A stretch of DNA of 64,000 bases from positions 82,920 through 146,919 of the forward strand of contig JAOZHZ010000027.1 of NCBI GenBank assembly GCA_026014615.1. The letters are read 5' to 3'. The DNA is from Candidatus Bathyarchaeota archaeon. Lineage in GTDB: Archaea > Thermoproteota > Bathyarchaeia > Bathyarchaeales > Bathycorpusculaceae. The notes under the pieces are model-generated. The model was not told the origin of the DNA. It saw nothing but the letters and a program-made list of their open reading frames with translations, and did not search any database. Shown one piece after another: positions 18,274 to 62,920 of the stretch. Each line of letters starts with the position of its first letter. Position 1 is the stretch's first letter. The position numbers and the translations under genes are program-made.

Positions 18274-18371
18274 GGGGCTGAGTGGGCTCTGGAGAAGTGG
18301 ATTTCCAACTTCTAGTTGGGTTTCATTTTCTTTCTCTCCTAAAGATTTGCGTTCCAGAGCCCCAGCAAACC
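18274..18371 (+). ncRNA. Conserved structured 3' element, copy 1
   Basis: Starts GGGGCTGAGTGGGCTCTGG and ends CCAGAGCCCCAGCAAACC. It folds as GGG/CCC and GCUG/CAGC outer stems and a GGGCUCUGG/CCAGAGCCC stem. The inner hairpin CCAACU-UCU-AGUUGG has its own compensating extension compared with other copies. The C/U tract TTTCTCTCCT is present. Confidence 0.7.
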
Positions 18372-18540
18372 TTTCTTGTAATGAATTCGACGGGCGAAAA
18401 ACGTCCCTTTTTGTTAGACTGGCGGAATTGTATAGGTTTTTAAATTTTACGTTATCTCATTGCTTGCTTCTATCTCAACAGTTATGACCTGTACTTAGTG
18501 TTTTACGTGTTTAGCTTTCTTCTTACGGTATGGTCAAAGA

Positions 18541-19527
18541 TTATTTGAGGTGCTTGTTGAAAAGGTCCATTGGCCACCATTGTGGTATTCTAACTATGGC
18601 TGTGTCCACTTTTTCAATTCCCTGAATTTTGTGAATTATTTCGTTGAAGGCAAAGATGTCGTCGATGTTTGAAATTGCAAAATCAACTCTTAAATCGTAT
18701 CTCCCGATGTACTTGATAAGGTGAATCATATTTTGAACTTTAAGCAGCTGGTCGACTATTTCGGGCATCTTGATTTTGTTTGAAATTTTTATGAAATTTG
18801 CATATGAGGCTTTGTATCCAAGTTTGTTTAGGTCAACTGCAATTGTTGAACGAGTGAGTACATTTCCCTCTCTAAGCCTATTGTACCTGTTAATTACATT
18901 GTGAATTGAAATTTGCAGCCTCTTTGCGATTTCGTTAAATGACATGCGGGAGTTTTCTGAGAGTATTTTCGCTATTTTCCTATCAATCTCGTCTATGTCT
19001 GCTTTGTAAAACTCGACTGGGCTCTTGTTTTCTTTTTCGTTTTTCTCCCCAAATTCTGGAAGCTGTTCAATTATCAAGTTTTCAGCATGGTCAATGTTTT
19101 GGTCTTCAGCCCAGATGAACGCTTCTGTGAGTTTAATGTGTGGATTAGCTTCTATTTCTTGTAGTAATCTACCTAGTTTTCCGATTGTAGGTAGCAAGAT
19201 TAAACAAAAACAGTTATACCTCCCGAAAGGGCCCACAAGGGTAATGTAGCGTTTATTTTGAAGAAATTGTTTTACTTCTTTTTCGTAGCCGATAGCGGTT
19301 TCGATTCCTACATCAGCTACTGCTTCGTACCCCCAAAACTTGGGATTCATGTACATTTGTTCGCCTACAATTATTCCTGCTTTTTTTAGGCGATTGAAGC
19401 GCATTCTAACAGCGCAGACAGAGATATTGCAAACCTTTGATAGTTGAGTGAAGCTAGTTCGTGACTCTTTCAGCAGAATTTTTAGGATTGTGGCATCAAT
19501 TTCATCGATTTTTTTTCTGTTTTCCAA
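18541..19527 (-). CDS. Tandem two-domain Lrp/AsnC-type regulator
   Basis: 328 residues in two Lrp units. The first HTH is IDEIDATILKILLKESRTS...CAVRMRFNRLKKAGII, followed by a RAM-like domain; a charged linker (NEKENKSPVEFYKA) follows; the second HTH is IDEIDRKIAKILSENSRMS...HNVINRYNRLREGNVL, with a second RAM domain. It is the same architecture as 14315-15307 but clearly diverged. Head to head with the propeller gene at 19732. The next propeller gene (22890) has no regulator of its own but carries the same YGCATA motif, so this protein may serve both. Confidence 0.85.
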   Translation of the reverse strand: MENRKKIDEIDATILKILLKESRTSFTQLSKVCNISVCAVRMRFNRLKKAGIIVGEQMYMNPKFWGYEAVADVGIETAIGYEKEVKQFLQNKRYITLVGPFGRYNCFCLILLPTIGKLGRLLQEIEANPHIKLTEAFIWAEDQNIDHAENLIIEQLPEFGEKNEKENKSPVEFYKADIDEIDRKIAKILSENSRMSFNEIAKRLQISIHNVINRYNRLREGNVLTRSTIAVDLNKLGYKASYANFIKISNKIKMPEIVDQLLKVQNMIHLIKYIGRYDLRVDFAISNIDDIFAFNEIIHKIQGIEKVDTAIVRIPQWWPMDLFNKHLK

Positions 19528-19644
19528 TGCGCTTCCACTTCAACCATGTATGTCAACATATGTGAGTTAGTTAAGTTTTTCCGAAATCTAACAACACACA
19601 ACCCAAAAACCAGATATTTTGTATTTTTGTTGTGATTTTCTGTT

Positions 19645-19663
19645 CGTATTTTGCATAATTTGG
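19645..19663 (+). promoter_or_regulatory. Shared TTYGCATAA-type motif (Lrp-cluster site 2)
   Basis: CGTATTTTGCATAATTTGG lies 16 bp upstream of the TATA box of the propeller gene, in the gap shared with the tandem Lrp gene. Confidence 0.4.
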
Positions 19664-19678
19664 TCGTAATCTAGCAAG

Positions 19679-19687: not shown

Positions 19688-19731
19688 GTAAATGGGGTGA
19701 ATCATATCGTCTAAAAATGGAGAGAAAATAT

Positions 19732-22431
19732 GTGACTGACTCAAATAGAAAAAAAATCTCCTCGACTGTCAAGCGACATTGTTTTAAAGCAAACTCAATC
19801 GCGAACCTAAAGGTCTCTGCGGCAATCGCGCTATGTTTTATGCTGACTTTCGCTATGTTTCTTTTAATAGCTTTGCCTGCTAACGCTGCAACAGAAACCA
19901 CCACCACAATCTATCCTTACATTGTTGTTTCACCAAGCACAACAGGTGTTACCCAACCAGTGTTCGTCTCTGGCTTCACTGCAGACCCTCCGCCCAGTGG
20001 CACCTACTTCAGTGACGTTACAGTGACAATCACCGATCCTGAAGGTGTTTCAACGGTGAAATCATTTGATAAAACCGACACGTTGGGCGCCATATACTTC
20101 CAGTTTACGCCAACAATGGTAGGTACCTACACTTTCCAATCGCATTACCCACAGCAGGAAGATTATGGCTTTAACGGCTTTGACTTTGTCAATTTCATTA
20201 ATACAACAATCTTAGCTGCCGACAGCAACGTAGCCACATTGACCGTTCAACAACAACCGCTAACTGAACCGATTGCGCAAACTTCGCTTCCTACGAATTA
20301 TTGGACTCGCCCAATAAGTGGTGATAATCATTTGTGGTCTGAAATTTCAAGCAACTGGCTAATGGGCTCTTATGACTACATATCGCGATCCTTTGACACA
20401 GCATTTGCAAACCAACTATACGGCACTGCGCCGAACCGTGCGCACATCTTATGGACCAGACCTTATGATGGCTCATTTGGAGGTCTCGTAGGCGGTGAAT
20501 ACGGCGATATGCCCTACTATTCAGGCATTTCCTACCAGAACTACTTCAAACCACCAGTAATCATAAACGGCTACCTCTACTACAATACTCCCTTTGCAAA
20601 CCAAGCTGGTTCAGGCGCTACTGGAGCTGTCGGTTATACAAACCAGAATGGTGCTGTCTGCGTGGACATGGCTACTGGAGAAACCGTTTGGTCTAATCCT
20701 AACTTGACAATAAGCTTTGGTCAAGTGCAATCGCACATTAACCTTAACGAGGGCGGAGCGTATGCATACCTGTGGAGTCAAAAAGGTACGACTTGGAGTA
20801 TGTATGATGCAGTAACTGGAAAATACATTCTAAGCATCGCAGATGTACCAAGCGGTATTATAATGCTGAACAATCCACCTAGCGGAATTGGTGAAATCCT
20901 AGTTTACAGTCTGGACGCATCTTCTGGAACACTGACCTTATGGAACTCCACTTTGGCTATCGACAATGTACCATATAAGGCGGGTAATATGCACTGGCCT
21001 GCGTTAAAATTCTACGGGCAAACCCTTAATGCATCAGACGGTATACAGTGGACGAAGGTTTTAGATGATTTTCCGCAATCTGGCTACCTAGTGCAGGTAA
21101 ATCCGGAAACCGGAGTGCTTGTGCGCAATGGAACGGGTACCGGATCTGGTGGATATAGTTTCCCTGATGTTATGACTTGGTGCTCTTACTCAATAACTGA
21201 TGGATCCAAGCAGTGGGGACCAACAACTATAGACCTTGCTTCGTATATTCCGCCGAACTCTTCTGCGGCGAACATGCTAGGAGGGACTTTTTTTGGAAGC
21301 ACTAGCGGTGCGCACTCAGTGGGCGACAACAATATCCTAGCTGCGTTTATTAAAGGAACATTACAAACAATTGCTTTCGATGTCCAAACAGGTCAGAAAC
21401 TGTGGGGACCCTCTAACACTTTGACGAACGGTTTTGCAGTATTCAATTGGCAACAAATTTTCACAGTTGACGACTTCATCTACAACTGTGGCTATGACGG
21501 GCACCTATACGCATATGACGCCAACACTGGAAGTCTTGTCTGGGATTTCTATAGCGGAGATGCAGGCACCCTTACTCCATACGGTACTTGGCCTTTCTAT
21601 GCTGGCTTGACGTTTGCTGACGGGAAAGTTTATGCAACTACTGGAATGCATGGCACAGGCGTAGCAACGCTTTATCGAGGGCAAGCATTGTACGCGATAG
21701 ATGCGATGTCAGGTGAACAAGTGTGGAACATGAGTGGATGGTTTGAACAACCAGCCATAGCTGACGGAAAATTAGTGACCAAGAACAACTACAACAACGA
21801 GATATACTGCTTTGGTCAAGGTCCAACCCAAACAACAGTTACAGTGCCAATGCCTGTTATAACACAAGGTTCAGCCGTGCTGATACAAGGTACTGTAACT
21901 GACCAATCGCCAGGCGCAAAGGGCACACCAGCCATATGCGACGAAGATATGAGTGCATGGATGGTGTATTTGTACAACCAGAAAGAACTACCTACAACCG
22001 CTAAAGGTGTTCAAGTGAAACTTACCGCCATCGACCCCAACGGCAACTGGCAAGACATTGGCACAGCAACCAGTGACATCCACGGCAACTTTGCAATTGA
22101 TTGGACTCCACCAGTACCTGGCATGTACCAAGTAACTGCTACTTTCGAAGGCACCAACTCCTACTACAGTTCGTCACAGACAACATACTTCACAGTTAGC
22201 AGCCCAACCTCAACGGCTCCAGCAGCAGTTGCCACACCAACGACAAATCCACCCCAATCCACAGAAGAACCCACACCTCCGTCAGTGCCTGTTTCAGCAT
22301 CACCTTCGCCAAGCCAAGTTCCACAGCCAACTAGCGCCCAACCAACTACAACATACATCGCAATCGCAGCAGCTGTTGTTGTCATTGCAGTTATTGTAGC
22401 GGCTGTACTAGTGCTCCGAAGGCGTAAGTAA
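19732..22431 (+). CDS. Large surface PQQ-like beta-propeller protein
   Basis: About 899 residues from GTG 19732. GGAGAG at 19719-19724, 7 nt before this GTG, decides the start; an ATG at 19717 lies inside the site itself. The domain order is that of the family: signal peptide ending near LPANAAT; N-terminal Ig-like domain (PSTTGVTQPVFVSGF to GTYTFQSHYPQQ); propeller blades (AYDANTGSLVWDFYSG, AIDAMSGEQVWNMSG); Ig-like domain with the AICDEDMSAWMVYLYNQ insertion; a long P/T/S linker; TM helix; and the tail RRRK. It is outward-facing and membrane-anchored; its ligand is unknown. It is divergent from the tandem Lrp gene at 18541. Confidence 0.85.
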   Translation: MTDSNRKKISSTVKRHCFKANSIANLKVSAAIALCFMLTFAMFLLIALPANAATETTTTIYPYIVVSPSTTGVTQPVFVSGFTADPPPSGTYFSDVTVTITDPEGVSTVKSFDKTDTLGAIYFQFTPTMVGTYTFQSHYPQQEDYGFNGFDFVNFINTTILAADSNVATLTVQQQPLTEPIAQTSLPTNYWTRPISGDNHLWSEISSNWLMGSYDYISRSFDTAFANQLYGTAPNRAHILWTRPYDGSFGGLVGGEYGDMPYYSGISYQNYFKPPVIINGYLYYNTPFANQAGSGATGAVGYTNQNGAVCVDMATGETVWSNPNLTISFGQVQSHINLNEGGAYAYLWSQKGTTWSMYDAVTGKYILSIADVPSGIIMLNNPPSGIGEILVYSLDASSGTLTLWNSTLAIDNVPYKAGNMHWPALKFYGQTLNASDGIQWTKVLDDFPQSGYLVQVNPETGVLVRNGTGTGSGGYSFPDVMTWCSYSITDGSKQWGPTTIDLASYIPPNSSAANMLGGTFFGSTSGAHSVGDNNILAAFIKGTLQTIAFDVQTGQKLWGPSNTLTNGFAVFNWQQIFTVDDFIYNCGYDGHLYAYDANTGSLVWDFYSGDAGTLTPYGTWPFYAGLTFADGKVYATTGMHGTGVATLYRGQALYAIDAMSGEQVWNMSGWFEQPAIADGKLVTKNNYNNEIYCFGQGPTQTTVTVPMPVITQGSAVLIQGTVTDQSPGAKGTPAICDEDMSAWMVYLYNQKELPTTAKGVQVKLTAIDPNGNWQDIGTATSDIHGNFAIDWTPPVPGMYQVTATFEGTNSYYSSSQTTYFTVSSPTSTAPAAVATPTTNPPQSTEEPTPPSVPVSASPSPSQVPQPTSAQPTTTYIAIAAAVVVIAVIVAAVLVLRRRK

Positions 22432-22482: not shown

Positions 22483-22576
22483 GGGGCTGAGTGGGCTTTG
22501 GAGGTGAATTTCCAACTTTGCTCGTTGGTTTTTCATTCTTCTCTCCTAGATTCCGTTCCAGAGCCCCAGCAAACCC
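22483..22576 (+). ncRNA. Conserved structured 3' element, copy 2
   Basis: GGGGCTGAGTGGGCTTTGG pairs with CCAGAGCCCCAGCAAACCC, using one U-G wobble in the main stem. The inner hairpin is CCAAC-UUUGCUC-GUUGG. The tract TTCTCTCCT is kept. Confidence 0.7.
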
Positions 22577-22750
22577 AGTTGTTTTTATGCCACTAAAACA
22601 AAAGGGAAAGCAGTTGAGACGTGGCTTTTTTCTTGATCGAAGCGTTTTTTGTGGTGATGTATATGCTCCAACTTTATGGTTGTGACCAATTATTTTACTA
22701 AATTATGTGGTTTATTAGTAAATTCATTGTTTATATCCGTGCAATTCACG

Positions 22751-22889: not shown

Positions 22890-25439
22890 GTGTTCCTTGC
22901 AGTTGCTTTGCTGCTGACCTCTTGTTTGCTGTTAACTGGCACCGTAATGGCACAAATAACGAGTCAGCCAACCTATGGATTCCTTTCTGTCGAACCAAAT
23001 TCCATCGGAGTTGGGCAAACAACGCTTGCCGTCTTTTGGATGGCTGATCCTCCTCCATTGGGTGGAATTGTCACAGCATATTCATATACTGGCGTAACCG
23101 TCGACATCATGAAACCTGACGGCACAAATCAAACCATGGGGCCATACACGCTGAACTCTCTCGGAAGTGGATATTTTAGTTACACTCCCACAGCTGCCGG
23201 TACCTATCAATTCCAATTAATTTACCCTGGAAACACGTTCGCTGACCTAAACCTAGACTTCTTACCTAGCCGAAGCAACGTAGTCACACTTGTTGTGCAG
23301 CAAGGTCCAGTGACCCCATTGCCTCAAACTCCACTGCCGACAACTTACTGGACTAGACCCATAAATGCAATGAATTACGAATGGAGCCAAGTTTCCGGAA
23401 ACTGGCTAATGGCAGGTTGGAACAGTACTGCACGAGCCTCGGAATTTGATTGCGGCTCGGCTTTCTGCCCCGAAGGCACATCGCCTGCAAGCGCGCACAT
23501 ATTGTGGACCACACCGCTTGCCACTGGGGGACTTGTTGGCGGACAAATGGGCAATATAGCTTACTATCAAGGGATTTCCTACCAACAATACTTCCAGCCA
23601 CCAGTGATAATAAACGGACGACTATACTATAACAGTATCGTGGCACAAGAGCCAACCCTAAACCCCTTCAGCGGTCAAGCTCTCGGTTCCAATATCGAAA
23701 GCATAATCTGTTTGGACATGAGAACTGGAGAGAAAGTTCTTACAATCCCTAACGCGACACTAGGTATTGGCCAAATCTACAATTACGTTACAGAAAACCA
23801 AGCTGGCGCCTATGCTTATCTGTGGGATACAGCAACACGAGCCACAGAAGGCACATGGACAATGTATGATCCATACACAGGCAGTAAAATACTAGACGTT
23901 TCCAACGTTCCCTCTGGAAATGCAGGAACAGTGATTGCGCAATCATCTGACGGCAGCATCATAGTATACACTCTTGACTACAATTTAACAGGAAACGGTG
24001 ACTACCAGTTGTCTTTGTGGAATTCGAGCAAAGCGGTTCCAAATGGAGGTCCAACAGGCGCTACAGTACTATCGCTTCACGGACAGACGATTGACGGAAC
24101 TGCTGGACATGAATGGACCGTGACCGAACCTAATACTGCTGAGGGCCTGACTTTGAATCCGACTTGGTGTCAGGGTGCGTGGTTTGCTGGTAATTACATA
24201 CTTGCTGAAAGTATTCCAAACGGTGGCGTAAACGGATTCTTCGATTACTGGGATGTTACCAGCAAGGCTCCGATTTATGTTGCAGCTTATGATCTGGCTA
24301 CTGGGCAATTTGCATGGAACTCCACAATTTTGCCTCCTGAAGGTATGTTGAATAACTTTGGGAATAGTGGTGAGGGTCAGTACGAATTTGATGGCATATA
24401 CTACTGTTGGCAGAAGCAAACAATGCAGTGGATTGCTTGGGATGTACAAACAGGCGAACAACTTTGGGTCAGTGAACCCTACACAAATCCTTGGGGGCAC
24501 TATGTACAATCTGGCGGTGTAATGAGCGCTTTCGACATGTTTTACGCGGCAGGAATGGACGGCGAAATACACGCGTATGATACCCAAACAGGCACAAAGG
24601 TATTCGACTTCAAGGCCGCACCTTCTGGACTTGAAACACCATACGGCGTTTACCCATTCTACAACGGAATAACTGTTACCGGCGATGGCAAAATATTTGC
24701 GCAGACGGGGCAACACGGGAACGGCGTTGAACCAATGTACCGCGGACAGGCATTGTATGTTGTAGATGCAAAAACTGGGCAGAGCCTTTGGAACATGACA
24801 GGCTGGTTTGGGCAAGGTGCACTCGCAGACGGTATGTATGTCGCTCCGAACTTCTATGACGGCCAAATATACTGCTTCGGAAAAGGTCCCTCGGCAACAA
24901 CTGTTGAAGCACCTTTGACGGCAGTACCAACAGGTTCCAGCATGGTAATTCAGGGAACCATAACCGATCAATCTCAGGGCGCGAAAGGTTCACCTGCAAT
25001 TTCTGACCAGTACATGAGCGAATGGATGTCTTACCAATATGAACAGCAAGCTTTGCCATCGACTTTTCCATACGAAACAGCAGGCGTTCAAGTGACGATA
25101 ACTGCAACTAGCCAGAACGGAAATACTGTAACCATCGGCACCGTTAACTCTGACAGCAACGGCAACTTTGCTATACAATGGAATCCACAAACTCAGGGCT
25201 TCTACACGATTACTGCTACATTTGCAGGGAGCAACTCGTACTACAAATCAAGCGCAGAGACTCACGTCACCGTTGACGCCGCCTCATCTTCCGTCGCATC
25301 AGCATCAATTTCGCCTTTACCAAGCCAAGCTCCACAACCGAGTAGTGACGCTGCAACCACAACGACCATCGCAATAGCCGCCGCGATCATAATAATCTTG
25401 ATTGCAGCCGTAGCTCTGGTGCTCAGAAGACGCAAATAA
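22890..25439 (+). CDS. Large surface PQQ-like beta-propeller protein, start frame disturbed
   Basis: 849 residues from GTG 22890, though the true N-terminus is probably longer. The in-frame sequence upstream (KFKKTFNTLFYPAKTKTFVF) is a typical signal-peptide n-region. GGAGAG at 22820-22825 is followed by TTG 22832, as in sister genes, but the TTG is out of frame by one base (TTGGAAA where TTGAAA would fit). Downstream come the Ig-like domain (SIGVGQTTLAVFWMADPPP), propeller blades (AYDTQTGTKVFDF, VDAKTGQSLWNMTG), the Ig-like domain with AISDQYMSEWMSYQYEQQ, linker, TM and RRRK. It lacks a dedicated divergent regulator and is the only large propeller without the downstream structured element. 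Confidence 0.8.
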   Translation: MFLAVALLLTSCLLLTGTVMAQITSQPTYGFLSVEPNSIGVGQTTLAVFWMADPPPLGGIVTAYSYTGVTVDIMKPDGTNQTMGPYTLNSLGSGYFSYTPTAAGTYQFQLIYPGNTFADLNLDFLPSRSNVVTLVVQQGPVTPLPQTPLPTTYWTRPINAMNYEWSQVSGNWLMAGWNSTARASEFDCGSAFCPEGTSPASAHILWTTPLATGGLVGGQMGNIAYYQGISYQQYFQPPVIINGRLYYNSIVAQEPTLNPFSGQALGSNIESIICLDMRTGEKVLTIPNATLGIGQIYNYVTENQAGAYAYLWDTATRATEGTWTMYDPYTGSKILDVSNVPSGNAGTVIAQSSDGSIIVYTLDYNLTGNGDYQLSLWNSSKAVPNGGPTGATVLSLHGQTIDGTAGHEWTVTEPNTAEGLTLNPTWCQGAWFAGNYILAESIPNGGVNGFFDYWDVTSKAPIYVAAYDLATGQFAWNSTILPPEGMLNNFGNSGEGQYEFDGIYYCWQKQTMQWIAWDVQTGEQLWVSEPYTNPWGHYVQSGGVMSAFDMFYAAGMDGEIHAYDTQTGTKVFDFKAAPSGLETPYGVYPFYNGITVTGDGKIFAQTGQHGNGVEPMYRGQALYVVDAKTGQSLWNMTGWFGQGALADGMYVAPNFYDGQIYCFGKGPSATTVEAPLTAVPTGSSMVIQGTITDQSQGAKGSPAISDQYMSEWMSYQYEQQALPSTFPYETAGVQVTITATSQNGNTVTIGTVNSDSNGNFAIQWNPQTQGFYTITATFAGSNSYYKSSAETHVTVDAASSSVASASISPLPSQAPQPSSDAATTTTIAIAAAIIIILIAAVALVLRRRK

Positions 25440-27026: not shown

Positions 27027-27070
27027 CATGAAAAACAATCCGCGTTCTTATGCAAAATGGAGCGCTTAAA

Positions 27071-29794: not shown

Positions 29795-29817
29795 TTTTCC
29801 CCTTTTTCCTTTTTTTG
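29795..29817 (+). terminator. Oligo-T terminator tract
   Basis: A run of C and T ending in seven T's begins directly at the stop codon. Confidence 0.5.
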
Positions 29818-29846: not shown

Positions 29847-29944
29847 GGGGCTGAGTGGGCTCTGGAAGGTGAATTTCCAACTTGTTTGTTGGGTTTTCAT
29901 TTCTTTCTCTCCTAAGATTTCCGTTTCAGAGCCCCAGCAAACCC
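29847..29944 (+). ncRNA. Conserved structured 3' element, copy 3
   Basis: GGGCTCTGGAA pairs with TTTCAGAGCCC over 11 positions with one G-U. Inner hairpin CCAAC-UUGUUU-GUUGG, then TTTCTTTCTCTCCTAAG. On the minus strand the same tract reads as GGAGAG plus ATG, giving a 40-codon frame that I do not treat as a gene. Confidence 0.7.
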
Positions 29945-30005
29945 TTGAACTGACGTAGTTACTGCTTGAAAACTTTTCTAGCCGCAATTTGGTGAACGCA
30001 AAGTC

Positions 30006-51645: not shown

Positions 51646-51661
51646 AGTGCACGTATGCACT
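51646..51661. promoter_or_regulatory. Operator palindrome AGTGCACGTATGCACT
   Basis: Arms AGTGCA and TGCACT around CGTA, ending 6 bp upstream of the TTTTTAAAAA TATA box. A regulator bound here would touch the BRE. Good candidate for the TrmB 50732 operator. Confidence 0.5.
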
Positions 51662-51667
51662 CGCCAG

Positions 51668-51677
51668 TTTTTAAAAA
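51668..51677 (+). promoter_or_regulatory. TATA box of propeller gene 51721
   Basis: TTTTTAAAAA, 44-53 bases before the TTG start. It lies inside the longer open frame that begins at 51655, which shows that translation starts at 51721 instead. Confidence 0.55.
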
Positions 51678-51720
51678 TCTTCAAAACCATCTCCATAACA
51701 TAAAAAATGGAGAGAAAAAT

Positions 51721-54383: not shown

Positions 54384-54475
54384 GGGGCTGAGAGGGCTCT
54401 AAAAGAATTGATTTCCAACTTGCCTTGTTGGTTTTCATTTCTTCTCTCCTAGGCTTCCAGAGCCCCAGCAAACCC
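54384..54475 (+). ncRNA. Conserved structured 3' element, copy 7
   Basis: GGGGCTGAGAGGGCTCT pairs with AGAGCCCCAGCAAACCC; the stem is shorter at the inner end (TAAAAG facing CTTCC). The inner hairpin is CCAAC-UUGCCUU-GUUGG and TTCTTCTCTCC is kept. Confidence 0.68.
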
Positions 54476-54651
54476 TCTTCCAGACAAACAAGGAATACAC
54501 AAACGTAACCGATGGAAGGAGTAAATAATTGATTGGAGGGGAACTTCTGATATTGAATGCTTTGGTTACGTGGGTTACTGAATTGTTGTACCGCTGATTT
54601 TTTGGTTTTTCTTTATTGGTCTCGGTGAGGTGAAGTCTTTTTTCTGCTGGC

Positions 54652-55440
54652 TCAAATAGGGTCTGCTTTTTGCCATGCGCGACAAAAATAGTCATCTACA
54701 ATTGTTATGATACCGAAGTTGTTTGTACATAGGACGCAGGTAGCTGTTGGGTCACGGTTTGTTTCTAAATTTAAAAAGAGTTCCCTTTGGTCGACTAAAC
54801 AACACATTACCGGAAGAGGGACCTTCGAGTATCTTACCTCACAGAAGTCGCGCTTTCTGGGTGAAACGGTTTCGTGTTCATTCTGAACTTTTTTTGGCTG
54901 GTTTGAAAGAATTTGGACTTCCACTCCCCTATCGATGGCTTTTTGTAACGAATCTGGGATGTCTTCAGGACTCCAAAAGGTTGACATAGGTAAGGTCATG
55001 ATAGATTTTACACCTTCTTGGGCGCCATCTATCAATTCAAAAATTCTGCGGCGGTGAGCTTCCCCTTTAGGTATCAAAACAAGCTCGCAGTTTTCTTCAA
55101 AGACATACTCATGCTCTGTTTTCTCGGACAGTTTTTTGGTTGCTGTCTTCAATGTTTGGAGTTGTTGCCTTTTTTTATTTAAAAGCATTTCAGCCGCCTT
55201 TTTGAGCGGAAGCGGCTTAAACTTGGGCGGAGACTCCAGTATTTTTTCCACTAAATCAAGTTCTTGAAGTGATAACATAGTTTGGTTAACGTTTTGGCGC
55301 GCAGTAGCCGAAGTCTTTGCAATTAATTTTATTGGAGCTGCGCCAATACTTGTGCATAAATCGTAGGTGGCAAGGTATATTTTTGCCTGTTGATACGTGA
55401 GACCCAAACCCATGAACGTCTTGAGGTTGTCCTCTCTCAC
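54652..55440 (-). CDS. TrmB-family regulator
   Basis: About 262 residues from GTG 55440, chosen because GGTGAT, the canonical archaeal site, lies 6 nt upstream; the frame is open to 55464. TrmB domain (FMGLGLTYQQAKIYLATYDLCTSIGAAPIKLIAKTSATARQNVNQTMLSLQELDLVEK), coiled coil (LLNKKRQQLQTLKTATKKLSEK) and C-terminal domain ending CTNNFGIITIVDDYFCRAWQKADP. In the C-terminal part RRRIFELIDGAQEGVKSIM resembles the shared TrmB fold. Divergent from the propeller gene at 55602. Confidence 0.85.
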   Translation of the reverse strand: MREDNLKTFMGLGLTYQQAKIYLATYDLCTSIGAAPIKLIAKTSATARQNVNQTMLSLQELDLVEKILESPPKFKPLPLKKAAEMLLNKKRQQLQTLKTATKKLSEKTEHEYVFEENCELVLIPKGEAHRRRIFELIDGAQEGVKSIMTLPMSTFWSPEDIPDSLQKAIDRGVEVQILSNQPKKVQNEHETVSPRKRDFCEVRYSKVPLPVMCCLVDQRELFLNLETNRDPTATCVLCTNNFGIITIVDDYFCRAWQKADPI

Positions 55441-55462
55441 CCTTAAATCACCCTCTCTATTC

Positions 55463-55490
55463 AAATTAGTAATTTTTGGTTTACTAATTT
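55463..55490. promoter_or_regulatory. Operator palindrome AAATTAGTAA-n8-TTACTAATTT
   Basis: Ten-base perfect inverted repeat, the longest in the window, immediately upstream of the TrmB gene and about 35 bp upstream of the TATA box of the propeller gene. Confidence 0.55.
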
Positions 55491-55601: not shown

Positions 55602-58448
55602 TTGAAAAGAAACCTGAATTGTTTAAGAAAACTGTTGGTGGCGGTAGTAGCAATGTTACTGCTGTCATCTACATTTGCACTATCAGCACAAATGGCAAAT
55701 GCAAGCGACCCTCCGGTGAATGTCCAAACTTGGACATACGTTGCAGTCACAAACGACCCCATAGGTCTAAATCAACAATTAGACATAGTATTCTGGCTCA
55801 ACGCTTATCCGCCAACTGCTGTAGGACAATCTGGTGACAGATGGAGCTTTACCGTTGACGTACTGAAACCTGACGGAACAACCGACACGCTGGGTCCGAT
55901 TACTTCGGATCCTGTGGGAGCCGGCTACGTTAAATATGCACCTGATCAAGTAGGCACGTATTCAGTAGTGGCTAAATTCGCGGAAAAAACGATTGATGGA
56001 ACACCTAATGGCTTTGCACCAGGATATAATCCGTCTAATTTCGGCTATTCAAGCATAAACGACACTTACCTTGCTAGCGCCAGCGACCCCGTAACCTTCG
56101 TTTGTCAAGAACAGGTAATACAACCATGGCAAGAACCTCCAATCCCAAGCGGGTACTGGACTACACCTGTCAACTCCATGAATCGTGGCTGGGAATCCAT
56201 GGTGGCTAACTGGCTGGGCGGCGCAGCACAAAACAATGGGCCAACCACCAACTTCGGCTGGGGCAGAGCGCCTGAAAGCGCCCATGTCCTCTGGACAACA
56301 CCCATGTGGTCAGGCGGAATTATGGACGCAAGATTCGGCGACGCTATGAACTACGAGACAATCCACTACGAAGGCTTAAGCTTCAACCCCATAATCCTCG
56401 ACGGCAGAATCTACTACAATGTGCAGTCTCTTCCAAGGGAAGGCTGGTACTGCCTCAACCTCTACACTGGCGAGACAGAGTACTTCAAGAATACCACAGG
56501 CCCAGTGAGCGGAGTAGGCGGAGGATTCGAACTCACGGGAGCAATCCAAGAAGGAGCACTGAGTTTCGGTCAGATACTCAACTATCAGTCGCCAAACCAG
56601 ATGGGCGGCTACCCATATTTGTGGAGCATCTCTACTGTTACCCAGTTTGGCGGTTCGACCAGCCAAACGGACTGGAGAATGTACGACGCTTACTCTGGCA
56701 ACTACATCTGTAGCATAGCCAACACAACATCGCCACTTATGTTTAACGGACAACCAGTAATGACCATGGGAATGATGGGTCCAACACCAGTAACGATTGG
56801 AGCAACAGGCTACCAAATCTATGGTCATGACGGACGCATATGCTATTATAACATAGTTAATGCTGGATCTATGTCTGAGCCACAATACTATCTGCAAGTC
56901 TGGAACACGAGCAAAGCAATTTCGTACAAAGCAGATCAAAATGCACTCGAAAGCGGCACCAATGCGTATTGGATGTGGAGACCATACCTTAACTTCACCT
57001 TCGACGGGTCCCAAGGCTTCACCTTAAACGTAACAACAGTCGACTTGACTGGTGCAGGAAGTATGCAAACAGTTCGTGAAGGCAAATACGTCATAGGCGG
57101 AACAGCAGGAAAGAACAACGGCACATTCGTACAGCAAGGACAAATGTGGGCATTGAACTTGGATCCAAGCAAAGGCGCAATAGGTTCGCTACTGTGGAAC
57201 ATAACATTCACTCCACCGGTTAGCGATGTACCTGATTCTGCGGCTGGTATGTTCGGCGGCGGAGTTATGTCTTTAGCAGGCGGAGGACTATCTGGAGGAA
57301 CAGGAGTAGACCCTGAAGACGGCGTTTTCTTGTTCTCGCAGACAATGACTAGACAATGGTGGGGTTACAGCCTAGAAACTGGCGAAGAGCTTTGGCACAG
57401 CGAACCTGAAAACCAGTGGAGCTACTACGGTATGAACTTTGACATCTATGATGGCATGTTGCTTTCTTCAGGATGCGGCAGTGCTGGATCCGAACTTAAA
57501 GCCTACGACATAACCACCGGCGAAGTTCTCTGGACATATGTGCCTCATCAAGTCGGCTTTGAATCACCCTACGGTGTGTATCCAATCACCATTTCATGCA
57601 TCGCTGACGGCAAGATTTACCTCACCTCTCGCGAGCACCACCAAATTGGCAACCTGTGGAGAGGTACAACCCTAAGATGCGTCAATGCAACTGACGGGTC
57701 AGAACTTTGGCAACTCGCAAGCTGGGGAGGTAACTACGTCTTATCTAACGGCTACCTAGTAGGATGGAACGCATATGACAACCAAATCTACTGCATTGGA
57801 ATTGGACCCAGCGCCACCACAGTCAACGTACAAAATGATGTCGTAACTAAAGGCAACACGGTATTCATCAAAGGCACCGTTTCCGACCAGAGCCCTGGAG
57901 CTATTAAGGCAGCTAAAACATTTGGTTACCTAAATGGCGTCCCAGCAGTTTCCGACGCTGACCAGCAAGGATGGATGGAATACCTCTATGAGCAGCAGTC
58001 AATGCCAGCCGACGCACAAGGCGTACCCGTACATTTGACGGCTATTGACCCTAACGGCAACTTCCAAGACCTAGGCACAGCAACCACTGATATAGGTGGA
58101 AGCTATGGCATCGAGTGGGTTCCCCCAGTAGAAGGCACCTACCAAGTCACAGCAACCTTCGCAGGAAGCAAATCCTATGGCGGCTCATACGCAACAACTC
58201 AGTTCGCTGTACAGCTACCTTCAGCTGTTTCTCCAGTTGTCACTGCTGCCCCATCACCATCAACTTTGCCTACTCAGCCGACTTCAGCACCTACCTCAGC
58301 GCCTACACAGTCACCTGCCCCATCGCCTAGTGAAGCTCCGCAACCTCCGACCGCTGGCATGCCCACCGAGACCTACATCGCAATCGGCGCAGCTATATTA
58401 GTCGTCGTTGCAGCAGCTGCAGCGCTGGTCCTCAGACGTCGAAAATAA
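55602..58448 (+). CDS. Large surface PQQ-like beta-propeller protein
   Basis: 948 residues from TTG 55602, with GGAGAG at 55590-55595. Signal peptide ends near QMANAS. N-terminal Ig-like domain (NDPIGLNQQLDIVFWLNAYPPTA, GDRWSFTVDVLKPDGT), propeller (AYDITTGEVLWTY, CVNATDGSELWQL, LETGEELWHS), Ig-like domain with KTFGYLNG and AVSDADQQGWMEYLYEQQ, a long P/S/T linker, TM helix and RRRK. It is closest to 27071 and 15502 although its regulator is of another family (TrmB, not Lrp). Followed by element copy 8. Confidence 0.85.
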   Translation: MKRNLNCLRKLLVAVVAMLLLSSTFALSAQMANASDPPVNVQTWTYVAVTNDPIGLNQQLDIVFWLNAYPPTAVGQSGDRWSFTVDVLKPDGTTDTLGPITSDPVGAGYVKYAPDQVGTYSVVAKFAEKTIDGTPNGFAPGYNPSNFGYSSINDTYLASASDPVTFVCQEQVIQPWQEPPIPSGYWTTPVNSMNRGWESMVANWLGGAAQNNGPTTNFGWGRAPESAHVLWTTPMWSGGIMDARFGDAMNYETIHYEGLSFNPIILDGRIYYNVQSLPREGWYCLNLYTGETEYFKNTTGPVSGVGGGFELTGAIQEGALSFGQILNYQSPNQMGGYPYLWSISTVTQFGGSTSQTDWRMYDAYSGNYICSIANTTSPLMFNGQPVMTMGMMGPTPVTIGATGYQIYGHDGRICYYNIVNAGSMSEPQYYLQVWNTSKAISYKADQNALESGTNAYWMWRPYLNFTFDGSQGFTLNVTTVDLTGAGSMQTVREGKYVIGGTAGKNNGTFVQQGQMWALNLDPSKGAIGSLLWNITFTPPVSDVPDSAAGMFGGGVMSLAGGGLSGGTGVDPEDGVFLFSQTMTRQWWGYSLETGEELWHSEPENQWSYYGMNFDIYDGMLLSSGCGSAGSELKAYDITTGEVLWTYVPHQVGFESPYGVYPITISCIADGKIYLTSREHHQIGNLWRGTTLRCVNATDGSELWQLASWGGNYVLSNGYLVGWNAYDNQIYCIGIGPSATTVNVQNDVVTKGNTVFIKGTVSDQSPGAIKAAKTFGYLNGVPAVSDADQQGWMEYLYEQQSMPADAQGVPVHLTAIDPNGNFQDLGTATTDIGGSYGIEWVPPVEGTYQVTATFAGSKSYGGSYATTQFAVQLPSAVSPVVTAAPSPSTLPTQPTSAPTSAPTQSPAPSPSEAPQPPTAGMPTETYIAIGAAILVVVAAAAALVLRRRK

Positions 58449-58514: not shown

Positions 58515-58609
58515 GGGGCTGAGTGGGCTTTGGGAAGATGATTCCAACTTGCTTGTTGGTTTTTCATTTCTTCTCTTCTATGTTTTCGTTCCAGAGCCCC
58601 AGCAACCCC
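58515..58609 (+). ncRNA. Conserved structured 3' element, copy 8
   Basis: GGGCTTTGG pairs with CCAGAGCCC (one U-G), inner hairpin CCAAC-UUGCUU-GUUGG, tract TTCTTCTCTTC (one change from the usual CTCTCC). Ends CAGCAACCCC, with one A fewer than other copies. Confidence 0.68.
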
Positions 58610-58747
58610 TTCAAAAAACAACTACGTTTTAGAAGCAAGAGAAATTAGGTAAGCGTGCTGAATGAATTTACGCCACCTTTTCTATTACGGGCGTATTTCC
58701 CCAAAACTAAAAATAATTTTTTCTCTTCAAGTTGACCAGATTTGTTG

Positions 58748-59587
58748 TTAGTTGTGTTTTGAGTGGGGGCGTATGACTTGGGTGTTTGGGTGGTTCCATA
58801 ATGTTTCAAATTCATGTTTTGCCATTGCGGCTATCACTTTGCTGTCCGTGAGAAGTACACTTGATTTTTCTTTATGCAATTCCACTGGGTAGAGTGGAAT
58901 CCACACTTCCTTGAAGTCTATAATCACGAACCAGAGTTTTTCTTTGGCTTCAAGCGTCCTTAATTCACAATTATCCTTCTTAGGTATTTTACTTGCCATG
59001 TTTTCGATGAAGCTATTGTCCTCCTTGCCATTGCCTGTTATTATCAATATGCGAATTTTTAGCCCACGTTTAGCAATTTCTTCTAAGTAATTATCATCCT
59101 GTCTGAAGTAATTTAACGGGTGCACTGGCACCACGAGATCATATTCTATTTCCATATTTTCGAACGTGGTCTCAACTTTGCTTCGAGAACTATCCAGACT
59201 TTCCGTCTGCAGAACGAAGACCTTAACGTCCTCGATGTCTATAGTGGACTTCTTTATGTTGCGGAAGATTTTCTCGATTTCTGTACGTTTCTGATTTAGG
59301 AATTTTAGTCTTTGTTCTGATCTCTGTTTCTCAAAATCGAGTAGCGCGTCTAGACCTTTTTCGACGGATATTGCTTCCACTTTTACTGGTCTGTTAACTG
59401 TCCTTAGTATTAATCCCTTCTTTTCCAGCATCAACAGCATTTTGTAAATATCCTGAGGATGAATCTTGGTAGCTTTAGAAATTTCGGGAACGGTTGTGCA
59501 TCCAGAACAAGCTACGGCTACGTAAACCTTAGCTTGATTATCTGAAAAGCCAAATTCAGATAATTTCTCAATTAACCTCTCCTTCAT
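58748..59587 (-). CDS. TrmB-family regulator
   Basis: 279 residues: TrmB domain (LSEFGFSDNQAKVYVAVACSGCTTVPEISKATKIHPQDIYKMLLMLEKKGLI), coiled coil (FEKQRSEQRLKFLNQKRTEIEKIF) and a C-terminal domain (IEYDLVVPVHPLNYFRQDDNY, LKIRILIITGNGKED, LWFVIIDFKEVWIPLYP) ending LTDSKVIAAMAKHEFETLWNHPN. ATG 59587 has no clear upstream site and may be leaderless. Divergent from the propeller gene at 59758. Its 3' end and downstream flank are repeated in decayed form at 62960-63125. Confidence 0.87.
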   Translation of the reverse strand: MKERLIEKLSEFGFSDNQAKVYVAVACSGCTTVPEISKATKIHPQDIYKMLLMLEKKGLILRTVNRPVKVEAISVEKGLDALLDFEKQRSEQRLKFLNQKRTEIEKIFRNIKKSTIDIEDVKVFVLQTESLDSSRSKVETTFENMEIEYDLVVPVHPLNYFRQDDNYLEEIAKRGLKIRILIITGNGKEDNSFIENMASKIPKKDNCELRTLEAKEKLWFVIIDFKEVWIPLYPVELHKEKSSVLLTDSKVIAAMAKHEFETLWNHPNTQVIRPHSKHN

Positions 59588-59696: not shown

Positions 59697-59700
59697 ATAG

Positions 59701-59712: not shown

Positions 59713-59757
59713 ATTTTGCCCAATCGGTGTTTCACAAATAAGAGGAAATTTGGTAAA

Positions 59758-62700
59758 ATGAAAAACACAAAAATCAATTTGCGAAAAGTCACCGCAATGA
59801 CCCTTATGCTTCTAATGCTTTCCAGCGCTGCAGTACTTGCGAACGGAAATACAGTCAATGCCCAAACAACAGGCATACCCAGTGATATGCTTCAGTATGA
59901 GTGGCCTCAGTGTGCTGTTGATGCCTCTCGTTCTAATTTCAATTCTGGTCCAGGTCCAACAACGTCAAACATTGAGTGGAGAACTGAAATACCTTACTTA
60001 GCGCGACCAGACCCAGTTGCCTTCAGCGGCATGGTCTTTGTTCAAGACAGCCCGCCAACTGGTGTCGTATCAACGTATGCTTTGAACGCAGCCACGGGCG
60101 ACATAGTTTACAAGGTTGAGGGAGCCAGCGGCAGCGTAGCCAAGCTGGATGACACTTACATGTTGATAGGCAGTAACTGCTATGAAATAGCTGATGGTTC
60201 ACTGGTTTGGCAGGGTCCATCCGGCTTCAGTCCATCCCAAAATCAAATGACTGGCATGGGCTATGTATCGGAGCTGAAGATGGTCTTCAGTAGCGGTCGA
60301 GGTTGGAGCCTTGCAAACCTAGCGCAACCACCAACTTTGCTATGGGACAGAACAACGGAGCCAGATTATGGTGCCTACGGTGCTGAAACAGAAAACATCT
60401 ACGGTAATGGCGTATTAGTGTATAAGACCGAATATAACTACATAGTTGGGGTTGACGCAGAGACTGGAAAAACCCAGTGGACCACAGCAATACCCTCAAT
60501 GGGTTTCTGGAGTTACGGAGCCAGCGTTATTGATGGCGTGCTTGGCCACGGAGACTTAAACGGCAACTTCTACGGTTGGGACATCACTACAGGCGAGCTT
60601 TTGTGGACATACACCCCCGGCACCTACTATAATGAATGGGCATGCGCTTCAGGTGCTGCTTATGGCATGTTCTACGAAAAGAACCAAGACACCTACTTAT
60701 ACGCCATTAATGCCACCACTGGCGAGTTGGTTTGGAAATACAAGGGACCCGGCGTTTCTTATTCTAACAGTCTTAGCATCGCAGGCGGCAAAGTATACGC
60801 TCAAACGGGCGAGAACCAGTATGTTGACTTCGCCACTGGCGAACCCGGGTATTCGGAGTTTGCTTGTCTTGATGCTTTTACTGGTGAAATCATTTGGACA
60901 GAACCTTGGGAAAACAACCCCCCAAACAGCCAACAATGCATTGCATACGGTAAGCTTTTCATTGCCCCCACAATGTCAACTTACCACCCTGGCGTACACG
61001 TTTACGGGTTCACTGAGGGCTCCCTTAGCGAAATCTGGTGTGTAGGCGATACGCCGAAAGACTGGTCTATGTTCCTCAGCGACCCAGAAAACAGTGGTGT
61101 CGGCGATGGTCCAACAAACTTGGTGCTGAACTGGAAGACTTCAACTGGCTGTATTCTTCTTTCGCCGGCAATCGTTAATGGGGTAGTTTACGCAGGTTCC
61201 TTTGATGGAAACATTTATGCATTCAACGCAAATACAGGCGAACAGAAATGGAGTTACGCGACGGGCAAAATTGGTTTCAGCAGCACACCAGCAGTAGCCA
61301 ACGGAAAACTGTACACGGGCGCTGACAACGGCAAAGTCTATTGTTTAAACGCTGAGACAGGTACAGAACTGTGGGCGGCTGATGTTGGCGGAATACCAAT
61401 GCCAGCAGTATCTATCGTTGGTCTTAGCGCGGCAGGCTCTCCAACTGTTGTAGGCGACAGAGTCTACGTTGCAGCTGCTAACAAGCTTATTTATTGTCTT
61501 AATGCAGATAGCGGCGCAGTAATCTGGAGTTACAACGCCACAGGAGACGTAAGTGCTACGACGCCGACAGTGGTTGACGGAGCAGTTTACCTCGGCGCCA
61601 ACGGCGGTTTCACTGAAGGCGGTTTCCATGTCATAAAGCTTAACGCTGCAACAGGCGCAGAGATATTCAACGTTGTTCTTCCAGGATACGTCGGCGGAAC
61701 CTTTGGGTCTTACATGTCAAGCAATATTATAACACCTGTAACAGTCGGCGGCGGCATTGTCTTTGCAAGAGGTCAATACCGGTACAACTACGCTTTGAAC
61801 GCAACCACAGGCGAAACCATCTGGATGATAGACGGCAAATACAATGTAGGCTTCCCTGGCCAAGCCCAAGGAAACAAACAATGCGCTCCCATGCTCTACC
61901 GAGGCGGCGTGGTATACTTCCAAGACTACTATGGCATAACTGCAGTAGATGCTTTCAACGGAACCGAACTGTGGCACACATACCTGTCACGCGAGACAAC
62001 TAGTCCAGGTTTATCGTACTCGTTTGGCAGAATCTACACAGTTAACGAGGCTGGAGCGCTTTACGTTCTTGATGCTTCAACTGGCGAGAAACTATCATAC
62101 TATCAATTCGAACATACATCGTTGAAATCAGTACCGACGCCATACAACGGCTCTCTATACGTCTGTTGCGCCGACTACAACCTATACTGCTTTGAAGAAG
62201 CTCCCACAACTCAAGCTACAGGCTCAGCATTACCTACCTTGACATCAGTGTCTGTTGCGCCGAAATTCCAGACATCGGGTTCAGCGGTTCTGTTTGAGGG
62301 CACAGTTCTGGCAGATTCTATGGGCACGCAAGCAGGCATACCCGTTGAGGTGCATTTGACGGCTATTGACCCTAACAACAACTTCCAAGACATCGCAGTT
62401 GTCACCAGTGATGATGCTGGTTTCTTCTGTACTACGTGGACTCCGCCTGTTCCGGGACCATACGTTGTTACTGCATGCTTTGAAGGTGACCAGTACTTTA
62501 TGCCATCTACAGCGAAAGCAGCCTTTGTTGTGACAGAAGAATCTGCAGCAGCTAACGCCGTTGTTTCCCCAACACCAATACCCGAGACTCCCACTTCAGC
62601 CGTGCCAACTCCGACGCCTGTGCAGTCTGTTTCACCTTCACCACTACCCAGCGAAGCTCCACAGCCTTCTACCAGTGCAGTTACTCCAATATGGACCTAC

Positions 62701-62772
62701 GCAGCCATAGCCGCAGCAGTCATAGTCATCTTAGCAGCGGCGGCCGTGTTAGCGTTAAGGAAGCACACGTAA
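59758..62772 (+). CDS. Large surface PQQ-like propeller protein, long subtype
   Basis: 1004 residues from ATG 59758 (MKNTKINLRKVTAMTLML); an earlier ATG at 59716 would add only a basic leader. It is the full-length relative of 31607: the mature chain starts DMLQYEWPQCAVDASRSNF, then a first propeller (ALNAATGDIVYKV, GVDAETGKTQWTT, AINATTGELVWKY), the junction DWSMFLSDPENSGVGDG, a second propeller (AFNANTGEQKWSY, CLNAETGTELWAA, VLDASTGEKLSYY), and an Ig-like domain without the WMEYLY insertion (VHLTAIDPNNNFQDIAVV). It ends with linker, TM helix and the tail LRKHT. Divergent from TrmB 58748 and followed by element copy 9. Confidence 0.85.
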   Translation: MKNTKINLRKVTAMTLMLLMLSSAAVLANGNTVNAQTTGIPSDMLQYEWPQCAVDASRSNFNSGPGPTTSNIEWRTEIPYLARPDPVAFSGMVFVQDSPPTGVVSTYALNAATGDIVYKVEGASGSVAKLDDTYMLIGSNCYEIADGSLVWQGPSGFSPSQNQMTGMGYVSELKMVFSSGRGWSLANLAQPPTLLWDRTTEPDYGAYGAETENIYGNGVLVYKTEYNYIVGVDAETGKTQWTTAIPSMGFWSYGASVIDGVLGHGDLNGNFYGWDITTGELLWTYTPGTYYNEWACASGAAYGMFYEKNQDTYLYAINATTGELVWKYKGPGVSYSNSLSIAGGKVYAQTGENQYVDFATGEPGYSEFACLDAFTGEIIWTEPWENNPPNSQQCIAYGKLFIAPTMSTYHPGVHVYGFTEGSLSEIWCVGDTPKDWSMFLSDPENSGVGDGPTNLVLNWKTSTGCILLSPAIVNGVVYAGSFDGNIYAFNANTGEQKWSYATGKIGFSSTPAVANGKLYTGADNGKVYCLNAETGTELWAADVGGIPMPAVSIVGLSAAGSPTVVGDRVYVAAANKLIYCLNADSGAVIWSYNATGDVSATTPTVVDGAVYLGANGGFTEGGFHVIKLNAATGAEIFNVVLPGYVGGTFGSYMSSNIITPVTVGGGIVFARGQYRYNYALNATTGETIWMIDGKYNVGFPGQAQGNKQCAPMLYRGGVVYFQDYYGITAVDAFNGTELWHTYLSRETTSPGLSYSFGRIYTVNEAGALYVLDASTGEKLSYYQFEHTSLKSVPTPYNGSLYVCCADYNLYCFEEAPTTQATGSALPTLTSVSVAPKFQTSGSAVLFEGTVLADSMGTQAGIPVEVHLTAIDPNNNFQDIAVVTSDDAGFFCTTWTPPVPGPYVVTACFEGDQYFMPSTAKAAFVVTEESAAANAVVSPTPIPETPTSAVPTPTPVQSVSPSPLPSEAPQPSTSAVTPIWTYAAIAAAVIVILAAAAVLALRKHT

Positions 62773-62789
62773 CCGCGCAAAACCACAAT

Positions 62790-62803
62790 CCCTTCCTTTT
62801 TTT
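62790..62803 (+). terminator. Oligo-T terminator tract
   Basis: CCCTTCCTTTTTTT about 17 bases after the stop codon. Confidence 0.5.
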
Positions 62804-62825
62804 GTTAAGAAAGCCCGTTGAAAAC

Positions 62826-62920
62826 GGGGGCTGAGTGGGCTTTGGAGACCGATTTCCAACTTACGTTGGTTTTCATTTCTCTCTCCTAAGAGATTTCCGT
62901 TCCAAAGCCCCAGCAAACCC
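62826..62920 (+). ncRNA. Conserved structured 3' element, copy 9
   Basis: The main stem is GGGCTTTGGA with TCCAAAGCCC: relative to copy 4 the fifth and sixth stem positions show a C-G to U-A double change, direct evidence that pairing is selected. The inner hairpin is CCAAC-UUAC-GUUGG and the tract TTTCTCTCTCC is kept. Confidence 0.72.

Follow-up and report, generated by a model that had tools for sequence, protein, structure and literature searches.

A BHB-like structured element repeated downstream of surface beta-propeller genes in Bathyarchaeia

The window, a 64,000-nucleotide stretch of a Candidatus Bathyarchaeota archaeon genome (GCA_026014615.1), carries genes for a family of large, membrane-anchored surface proteins with beta-propeller (PQQ_2) and Ig domains, hereafter the host family. 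For example, the gene at 15502–18201 (+ strand) encodes an 899-aa protein with a PQQ_2 beta-propeller, filamin/Ig-like domains, and a C-terminal membrane anchor ending in RRRK. Copy 1 of a repeated element (18274–18373, +) lies 72 nt past the stop codon of this gene. Copies 2, 3, and 4 (22483–22577, 29847–29945, and 34663–34761, all +) lie 51, 52, and 44 nt past the stops of the surface-protein genes at 19717–22431, 27050–29794, and 31574–34618, respectively. Copies 6 (50022–50118, +), 7 (54384–54476, +), 8 (58515–58610, +), and 9 (62827–62921, +) follow the genes at 47407–49968, 51655–54327, 55602–58448, and 59716–62772 by 53, 56, 66, and 54 nt. Copy 5 (46241–46333, +) is situated behind what remains of the tail of a surface-protein gene: tblastn of region 45601–46240 matched residues 813–895 of a relative (36% over 83 aa, E 1.5e-6). 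All nine copies of the original prediction were thus recovered, on the + strand and with starts at most 1 nt from those given there.

The copies share a near-invariant core, GGG-GCUG-ARW-helix...helix-CAGC-AAA-CCC, consisting of an outer helix (GGG/CCC), a 4-bp helix (GCUG/CAGC), 3-nt bulges on the 5' strand (ARW) and the 3' strand (AAA), and a covarying inner helix. In copy 3, the 5' side of the core (29847–29866, +) comprises GGG (29847–29849), GCTG (29850–29853), the bulge AGT (29854–29856), and the inner helix strand (29857–29866); the 3' side (29925–29944, +) comprises the other inner strand (29925–29934), CAGC (29935–29938), the bulge AAA (29939–29941), and CCC (29942–29944). The compensatory changes reported for copy 9 (GGGCTTTGG/CCAAAGCCC) and copy 6 (GAGCTCTG/CAGGGCTC) are present, and the extra U-A pair in the inner hairpins of copies 1 and 6 reads CCAACT...AGTTGG. 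Seven window copies folded better than shuffled sequences (0–6 of 200 shuffles equal or better), and the folding of copies 5 and 6 was not above shuffles (42 and 61 of 200 folded at least as well).

The family far exceeds the window, with 47 matches in the source genome. Identical elements occur in two contig-end pairs of this genome, and each pair may represent one locus. Carriers make up 43 of the 256 genomes of the class and represent two families of the order; the named ones are archaea labelled Bathyarchaeota or Crenarchaeota, among them Ca. Bathyarchaeum tardum, which is maintained as an enrichment, plus two contigs that are probably misbinned. The first alignment used 37 of 42 matches at E < 1e-6 (omitting three duplicates, one partial, and one diverged match), and a reduced alignment kept 30 of these 37 source-genome copies, omitting seven diverged ones. 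Element model R2 was built from 46 chosen elements. A search of the window plus 94 of 138 loci yielded 117 element matches, and a search of 67 named-carrier loci yielded 76. We analysed 160 distinct elements out of 161, one being omitted because of a differing anchor. Rfam models matched only two tRNAs in the whole window, both distant from the element copies; a search of 351 bases around copy 4 gave three matches far under the gathering scores (best E 1.1). Among the open papers listed in searches on Bathyarchaeia RNA motifs and on BHB motifs with untranslated regions, none dealt with this element.

Among the 160 distinct elements, pair-to-pair double changes numbered 51 in the proposed register and 0–9 in 16 slid registers, three of which held 8–10 pairs instead of 11. 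Within the 30 source-genome copies, covariation was modestly greater than in shuffles (10 to 46 of 500 reached the observed value, over five measures). In our own implementation of an R-scape-like simulated null, no single pair was significant (best E-value 0.42), and 11 of the 12 best of 676 column pairs in this scoring were proposed pairs. With homologs from many genomes added, it was the slid-register test that proved decisive. The proposed selection on pairing was upheld by the double changes, and so was the new structured family, by this selection together with the lack of an Rfam family at the gathering threshold.

Single changes in the helices gave G-U 121 times and A-C 49 times, a 2.5-fold excess where 1.3 to 1 is expected, and the excess stayed (p = 1e-4) once the transition bias of unpaired columns was corrected. 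This asymmetry implies folding of one strand alone, the one with the same sense as the upstream gene, and points to RNA (or single-stranded DNA), as judged from sequence. The element had been proposed as RNA or DNA; the G-U excess leaves RNA or single-stranded DNA standing and rules out a palindrome acting as double-stranded DNA. A coding reading of the reverse strand, where a ribosome-binding-site-like sequence precedes an ATG, was also considered and rejected. The ATG occurs in 31 source-genome copies, 29 of which remain open up to the element end, and the 14 readings inspected terminate in three different frames, so that no conserved peptide results.

Is the repeat a functionless by-product of recent gene duplication? 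The host gene family is expanded and its 3' ends have been exchanged, as this explanation would have it. However, the compensatory changes contradict it, the element occurs in two families of the order, and among eight ortholog pairs between genomes G000 and G006 there are seven in which the element is better conserved than the sequence on either side (the exception is copy 6). Median identity in the eight pairs was 0.83 in the element, 0.58 in the stretch from stop codon to element, and 0.53 in the 95 nt downstream. We consider such a by-product highly improbable. The original view that the copies reflect more than recent duplication is therefore retained on the compensatory changes, with the addition that gene 3' ends being exchanged or duplicated also plays a part. 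Three features go beyond the original account: the link of the copies to a single surface-protein gene family, the BHB geometry of the nested stem, and the homogenisation of copies within genomes.

The element is tightly placed. In the source genome, 40 of 47 copies lie at most 160 nt downstream of the end of a host-family gene on the same strand, and none of the 47 is near the end of an opposite-strand one; for this count, gene ends were taken from the 57 of 66 tail-profile matches that reach the profile end. In full-length host genes the element begins 33–101 nt past the stop. Ten clear host-family genes of the genome have no element, and a search for decayed elements behind eight of them found none above chance (best E 0.2). 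A stand-alone small RNA gene behind the surface-protein genes would explain copy 5, whose neighbouring gene is decayed, and the copies at two orphan sites, but it fits poorly with the almost constant tie to one gene family on one strand, and we regard it as unlikely. Few TATA-like hexamers were found 16–45 nt upstream of the element (TTTATA 1, TTATAT 0, TATATA 0, TTTAAA 10, and TTAAAT 2 in 155). This argues weakly in the same direction, since other ORFs seldom have such hexamers in front of them either (TTTATA 4, TTATAT 7, TTTAAA 11, and TTAAAT 17 in 122).

A selfish or mobile repeat (REP-, MITE-, or BHB-intron-like) that inserts beside U tracts would account for the many copies, the single dominant type per genome, the orphans, one site with a double copy, and the contigs that break off at the element. 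Against it stand the association with one gene family and the narrow range of distances from the stop in full-length host genes. In the ortholog comparison (limited to the 85 of 117 elements that follow a full-length gene), orthologous genes of different genomes carried the element at the same place with a different interior, and the pattern used for scanning viral contigs gave 0 matches. Mobility is very unlikely as the explanation.

Within a genome, the elements and the 3' ends of the genes before them are homogenised, and the homogenisation is graded along the gene (83 of the 117 elements, with full-length upstream genes, in seven clades). Such concerted evolution recalls the integron attC site, which the element also resembles as a folded repeat per gene with a variable interior and genome-wide homogeneity (the end box was compared by eye). 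In an attC-like reading, a recombinase would exchange folded single strands of DNA and shuffle surface-gene cassettes. Consistent with this, clusters of copies share one orientation (all + on contig C6, all − on C23), and a propeller block has been swapped between two close genomes whose flanks are 98% identical. Unlike at attC, however, the exchange breakpoints seen for element genes fall inside the gene: the lone swapped block examined ends within the coding region and not at the element, and the exchange is compatible with ordinary homologous recombination. We find a recombination site distinctly improbable.

The core has the shape of a splicing substrate. The archaeal splicing endonuclease EndA cuts bulge-helix-bulge (BHB) motifs in tRNA introns and pre-rRNA stems, and on each strand of a BHB the bulge follows the helix on its 3' side, as the tRNA arrangement implies. 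As described in PMC7714728 and PMC4090602, the motif has a central helix of 4 bp flanked by two bulges of 3 nt, one on either strand, with further helices beyond them. This geometry, in the register given above for copy 3, was found in 155 of the 160 distinct elements, counting those in which the 4-bp helix was paired along with no fewer than 3 of the 4 inner and 2 of the 3 outer pairs. The genome contains two PF01974 (EndA) matches above the cut-off and one PF01139 (RtcB) match. As a control for the motif in rRNA stems of this lineage, the 23S flanks of G047 and G006 were examined; one of the two held a BHB candidate that was not unique, and the other held none that was convincing.

The same core can be read otherwise. 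Because GCUG/CAGC is near-invariant, covariation gives no proof of pairing in the 4-bp helix, and EndA alone should not demand this sequence. A 3'-UTR element bound by a lineage-specific protein that acts on mRNA stability or membrane localisation, with no endonuclease cut and a coincidental BHB look, would fit the near-invariant GCUG/CAGC and AAA, which is more constraint than EndA should impose, as well as the close tie to one membrane-protein family and the fold above shuffles in seven of nine copies. It would, however, make the 3-4-3 geometry in 155 of 160 elements an accident. We take protein binding to be a real if doubtful possibility.

Sequence features around the core bear on expression. 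In copy 3, a pyrimidine/U tract (29795–29816, +) lies between the stop codon and the element. Runs of T6 or longer follow 34 of 34 surface-protein genes, compared with 15 of the 90 other ORFs that reach 200 aa, and T5 or longer follows all 10 element-less host-family genes inspected; the gene at 22890–25439 (+) is a window example with a U tract and no element. The tract upstream of the element is likely a terminator. As it precedes the element and also trails element-less genes, the element may often stay untranscribed. As a separate observation, a possible second hairpin, whose loop would hold the U tract, scored modestly above shuffled sequences, with a mean of 4.20 compared with 3.31 ± 0.31 (at least 1 of 200 shuffles was higher), with strong stems at 0.27 compared with 0.11 in shuffles.

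Inside the element, a conserved, unpaired UCUCC-type motif (TCTCTCCT in copy 3, 29906–29913, +) is complementary to the GGAGA-type ribosome-binding sites of host genes. Of 35 surface genes, 24 have GGAGA no more than 60 nt from the start, compared with 23 of 128 other ORFs. Pairing was computed for 79 leader–element pairs and motif match for 108, start codons in these pairs being set by a rule that favours ribosome-binding sites. Clade H leaders (G047, G053, and G056) paired with clade H elements at a mean of −15.8 kcal/mol, and more weakly, at −10.5 to −13.5 kcal/mol, with elements from six other clades. Elements paired no better with the leader of their own gene than with others of the same genome (means −15.87 and −16.49, 79 pairs), and the better pairing of surface genes than of other genes disappeared among GGAG-containing leaders (p 0.36–0.66). 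With neither preference, the motif may serve as an anti-ribosome-binding-site mimic of a general kind. CUCC is kept in the elements of 5 of 16 genes whose leaders carry GGTG.

We tentatively favour, with somewhat less than even confidence, a post-transcriptional role, in which the element would be an RNA device that surface beta-propeller mRNAs of Bathyarchaeia carry in their 3' region. When transcription passes the U tract, the element would fold, and EndA would cut both bulges between their second and third nucleotides. The cuts would release an inner RNA of about 85 nt, which RtcB may circularise, and give the mRNA a defined 3' terminus. Whether released or retained in the mRNA, the exposed anti-ribosome-binding-site motif would pair with the family's GGAGA (or GGTG) sites and damp or balance translation of the family, and exchange of gene 3' ends between paralogs would keep the element uniform within a genome. 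A bolder version is that the tRNA-splicing endonuclease of Bathyarchaeia cuts dozens of anti-ribosome-binding-site RNAs, near-identical and possibly circular, out of the 3' ends of surface-protein mRNAs, providing feedback on, or choice among, the surface proteins of the whole family, with gene conversion maintaining uniformity; we consider this rather unlikely.

To our knowledge, archaea offer few examples of structured mRNA elements. In bacteria, 3'-UTR elements of the S. aureus icaR type base-pair with the ribosome-binding site of the mRNA that carries them. The present element likewise sits 3' of the gene with a pyrimidine motif complementary to the ribosome-binding site, but it is archaeal, multi-copy, common to a gene family, and set in a BHB-like fold, and its pairing is predicted. 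BHB sites are rare in archaeal mRNAs; reported cases include the cbf5 mRNA intron (PMC2738675) and the HVO_1309 5'-UTR intron (PMC7714728), and in its passages on the subject the latter paper counts one BHB mRNA before its own leader. The element shares with archaeal BHB sites the 4-bp helix, the 3-nt bulges on opposite strands, and the flanking helices. Unlike BHB introns, it is present in tens of copies per genome behind the stop codons of one surface-protein family, and its core sequence is near-invariant with a covarying inner helix; cleavage is predicted from geometry. The host genes are very probably of the same kind as the expanded PQQ-domain family of Bathy-6, for which PMC11697101 gives 46 PQQ-domain genes in a closed genome; its passages on PQQ and duplication mention no 3' element, and the words 'repeat' and 'untranslated' occur 0 times in it.

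We propose that the element represents a new family of RNAs and puts the BHB motif to a new use, with transcription, EndA cutting, and pairing predicted from sequence. Its shape and motif suggest an unfamiliar control of a whole surface-protein family. With a BHB-shaped element behind tens of surface-protein genes, EndA would become a candidate for regulating gene expression, and Ca. Bathyarchaeum tardum, as a named carrier, would offer a clear test object. If the BHB of the element works, RNA processing would be linked to surface variation in uncultured archaea.

All nine copies in the original prediction are present in the window, on the forward strand and 93–100 nt each, and the nested stem proposed for them was found on folding every copy. 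Covariance model R1 gave 47 matches in the genome holding the window (G000; 2.6 Mb, 29 contigs), including two pairs of identical elements, all at contig ends. Because these ends carry identical elements, the assembly probably breaks at the repeat; the contig ends near a copy are C25:1, C23:109758, C26:342459, and C17:428441. Scans of the whole window and of 351 bases around copy 4 linked the element to no Rfam family. A weak match to a partial element 3′ end (nhmmer E 0.034) lies at 30609–30641, about 660 nt past copy 3, and locus L062 of another genome (G006) carries two elements on the minus strand about 470 nt apart (1236–1334 and 1801–1902).

Selection on pairing, also claimed originally, was borne out on a tree of the elements. 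The two outer arms could be anchored without gaps in 160 of 161 distinct elements, and parsimony counted 51 pair-to-pair double changes in the proposed register versus 0–9 in sixteen slid registers, the counts being not fully independent. Covariation in the first 30-copy alignment was only modestly above shuffles; against our simulated null, no single column pair was significant, and helix pairs made up 11 of the 12 best among 676 column pairs. Single changes off Watson-Crick pairs led to G-U in 121 cases and to A-C in 49, a ratio of 2.5 to 1 versus 1.3 to 1 from unpaired columns (p = 1e-4). This asymmetry indicates that the element folds as the strand sense to the upstream gene. Across eight ortholog pairs between G000 and G006, median identity was 0.83 for the element, 0.58 for the preceding stretch, and 0.53 for the following 95 nt; in one pair, that of copy 6, the element had no excess over its flanks.

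The element has the frame GGG-GCUG-ARW-inner helix...inner helix-CAGC-AAA-CCC. Like the bulge-helix-bulge motif (BHB), the substrate of splicing endonuclease EndA, which is defined as a 4-bp helix with two 3-nt bulges (PMC7714728, PMC4090602), it has two 3-nt bulges, one to either side of a 4-bp helix and each 3′ of that helix on its own strand, with flanking helices outside. With arms anchored on GCUG and CAGC, 155 of 160 elements have the 4-bp helix paired together with at least three of four inner and at least two of three outer positions; three further outer pairs are weakly above shuffles. The GCUG/CAGC helix barely varies, so covariation is no proof of its pairing, and for the same reason its reader may be something more specific than EndA. 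The EndA cut is described as falling between bulge residues 2 and 3 (PMC2738675), and the mRNA BHBs noted in one account are one mRNA and one new 5′ UTR (PMC7714728). In some Bathyarchaeia, 16S rRNA is reported to be circularised if it has a BHB; the same account describes circular 23S rRNA in all archaea that it investigated (PMC12918454). As a control for the motif in rRNA, the 23S flanks of G047 and G006 were inspected: one holds a BHB candidate that is not unique, the other no convincing one. G000 has gene matches to two EndA and one RtcB, and EndA would process the element at its BHB-like core.

R1 found the element in 16 of 60 genomes searched as relatives, G000 included. A broader model, R2, built on 46 elements, detected 43 carriers among 256 genomes of the class, and every carrier belongs to one of two families in a single order; a congener of G000 (G005) has a copy at contig position 2472–2572. 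An exact degenerate pattern, whose fixed form lets diverged members escape, matched 67 stretches among 84,980 species (one genome each). Their labels were Bathyarchaeota throughout, counting one miscellaneous Crenarchaeota group-1 record and one Crenarchaeota record of the AS06 series, a series otherwise labelled Bathyarchaeota in this set, apart from one Tenericutes and one Bacteroidales bin (L155, L197). These two contigs are probably misbinned Bathyarchaeia, because their sample series (M17C, Zod) are shared with Bathyarchaeota carriers. Viral contigs searched with the fixed pattern gave no matches.

In G000, 40 of 47 copies lie at most 160 nt downstream of the end of a tail-family gene, that is, a surface-protein gene matched by a C-terminal tail profile; four others are at contig ends, copy 5 is preceded by the remnant of a gene, and the last two are orphans. 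No copy had an opposite-strand tail-family gene end nearby (0/47). One orphan, L016:11933–12029 (−), comes directly after what appears to be the start of a surface gene, cut short and bearing a ribosome-binding-site-like sequence; a propeller search upstream of this orphan gave no match. Counted from the genes, the element accompanies 40 of 57 tail matches; of the 17 that lack it, one is at a contig end, six are weak, and ten are clear family genes. Among 60 genomes, 17 have a strong tail-family match, with a best E under 1e-40 (a threshold chosen afterwards), and 14 of these carry the element, versus 2 of the 43 others. Host products carry an Ig-like domain, membrane anchor, and basic tail at their C-terminus; those examined have 850–1020 aa, with PQQ_2 beta-propellers and Ig/filamin-like domains (Pfam scan of three proteins). 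Bathy-6 genomes are described as having expanded PQQ genes, 46 in a closed genome, and the sections seen of that account do not mention a 3′ element (PMC11697101). Lrp/AsnC or TrmB-type regulators stand divergent before several surface-protein genes (window 14315–15364, 18541–19527, 30680–31501, 50732–51583, 54652–55464, and 58748–59587, all on the minus strand), which suggests one regulator per gene.

Within G000, median identity was 0.83 for elements versus 0.43 for proteins (465 pairs), whereas the G000 gene at 51655–54327 is 82–86% identical to a G001 gene but their elements are only 61% identical, mostly in the outer frame. The nearest relative belonged to the same clade, of 83 cases, in 58 for N-terminal, 62 for middle, and 65 for C-terminal parts, 75 for tails, and 78 for elements (27 expected by chance). 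This rise toward the tail and element indicates that surface-gene 3′ ends are homogenised within genomes by concerted evolution. At one locus in two close genomes (L206 in G047, L207 in G056), flanks are about 98% identical and a propeller block of about 1.8 kb is replaced, yet gene start, C-terminus, and element all match, an exchange of surface-gene alleles.

All 34 of 34 surface genes have a U tract (T6 or longer) after the stop, versus 15 of 90 other large ORFs, and the tract mostly ends 20–36 nt before the element. Each of the ten clear family genes without the element has a U tract as well. Since U tracts are described as taking part in archaeal termination (PMC8716108), the element would be transcribed by read-through. 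TATA-like hexamers 16–45 nt upstream are rare; they are infrequent before other ORFs too, so the element may still have a promoter of its own. Past the tail gene at G000:C8:129109 (−), locus L226 has a CCCCC-T7-GAGGGGG hairpin whose loop contains the U tract; pairing around other U tracts is similar and weaker.

Among the unpaired stretches, conservation is highest in a pyrimidine motif, UCUCUCC(UA) or one of its variants. GGAGA occurs in start regions of 24 of 35 surface genes versus 23 of 128 other ORFs, some of whose starts may be wrong. Among 108 gene–element pairs, the 75 with GGAG leaders have CUCC in 66 elements and CACC in one, and the 16 with GGTG leaders have CUCC in five, CACC in four, and neither in seven. 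By computed pairing, clade H elements are the best binders of clade H leaders, a result resting on one clade switch. Elements paired no more strongly with their own leaders than with those of other family members in the same genome; among GGAG leaders the preference for surface genes over other genes disappears. The element thus represents a genuine new family of structured RNAs that is linked to a single surface-protein family, and its fold, folding strand, gene context, and concerted evolution are established from sequence. It combines BHB geometry with a putative anti-ribosome-binding-site motif, through which it would exert translational control.
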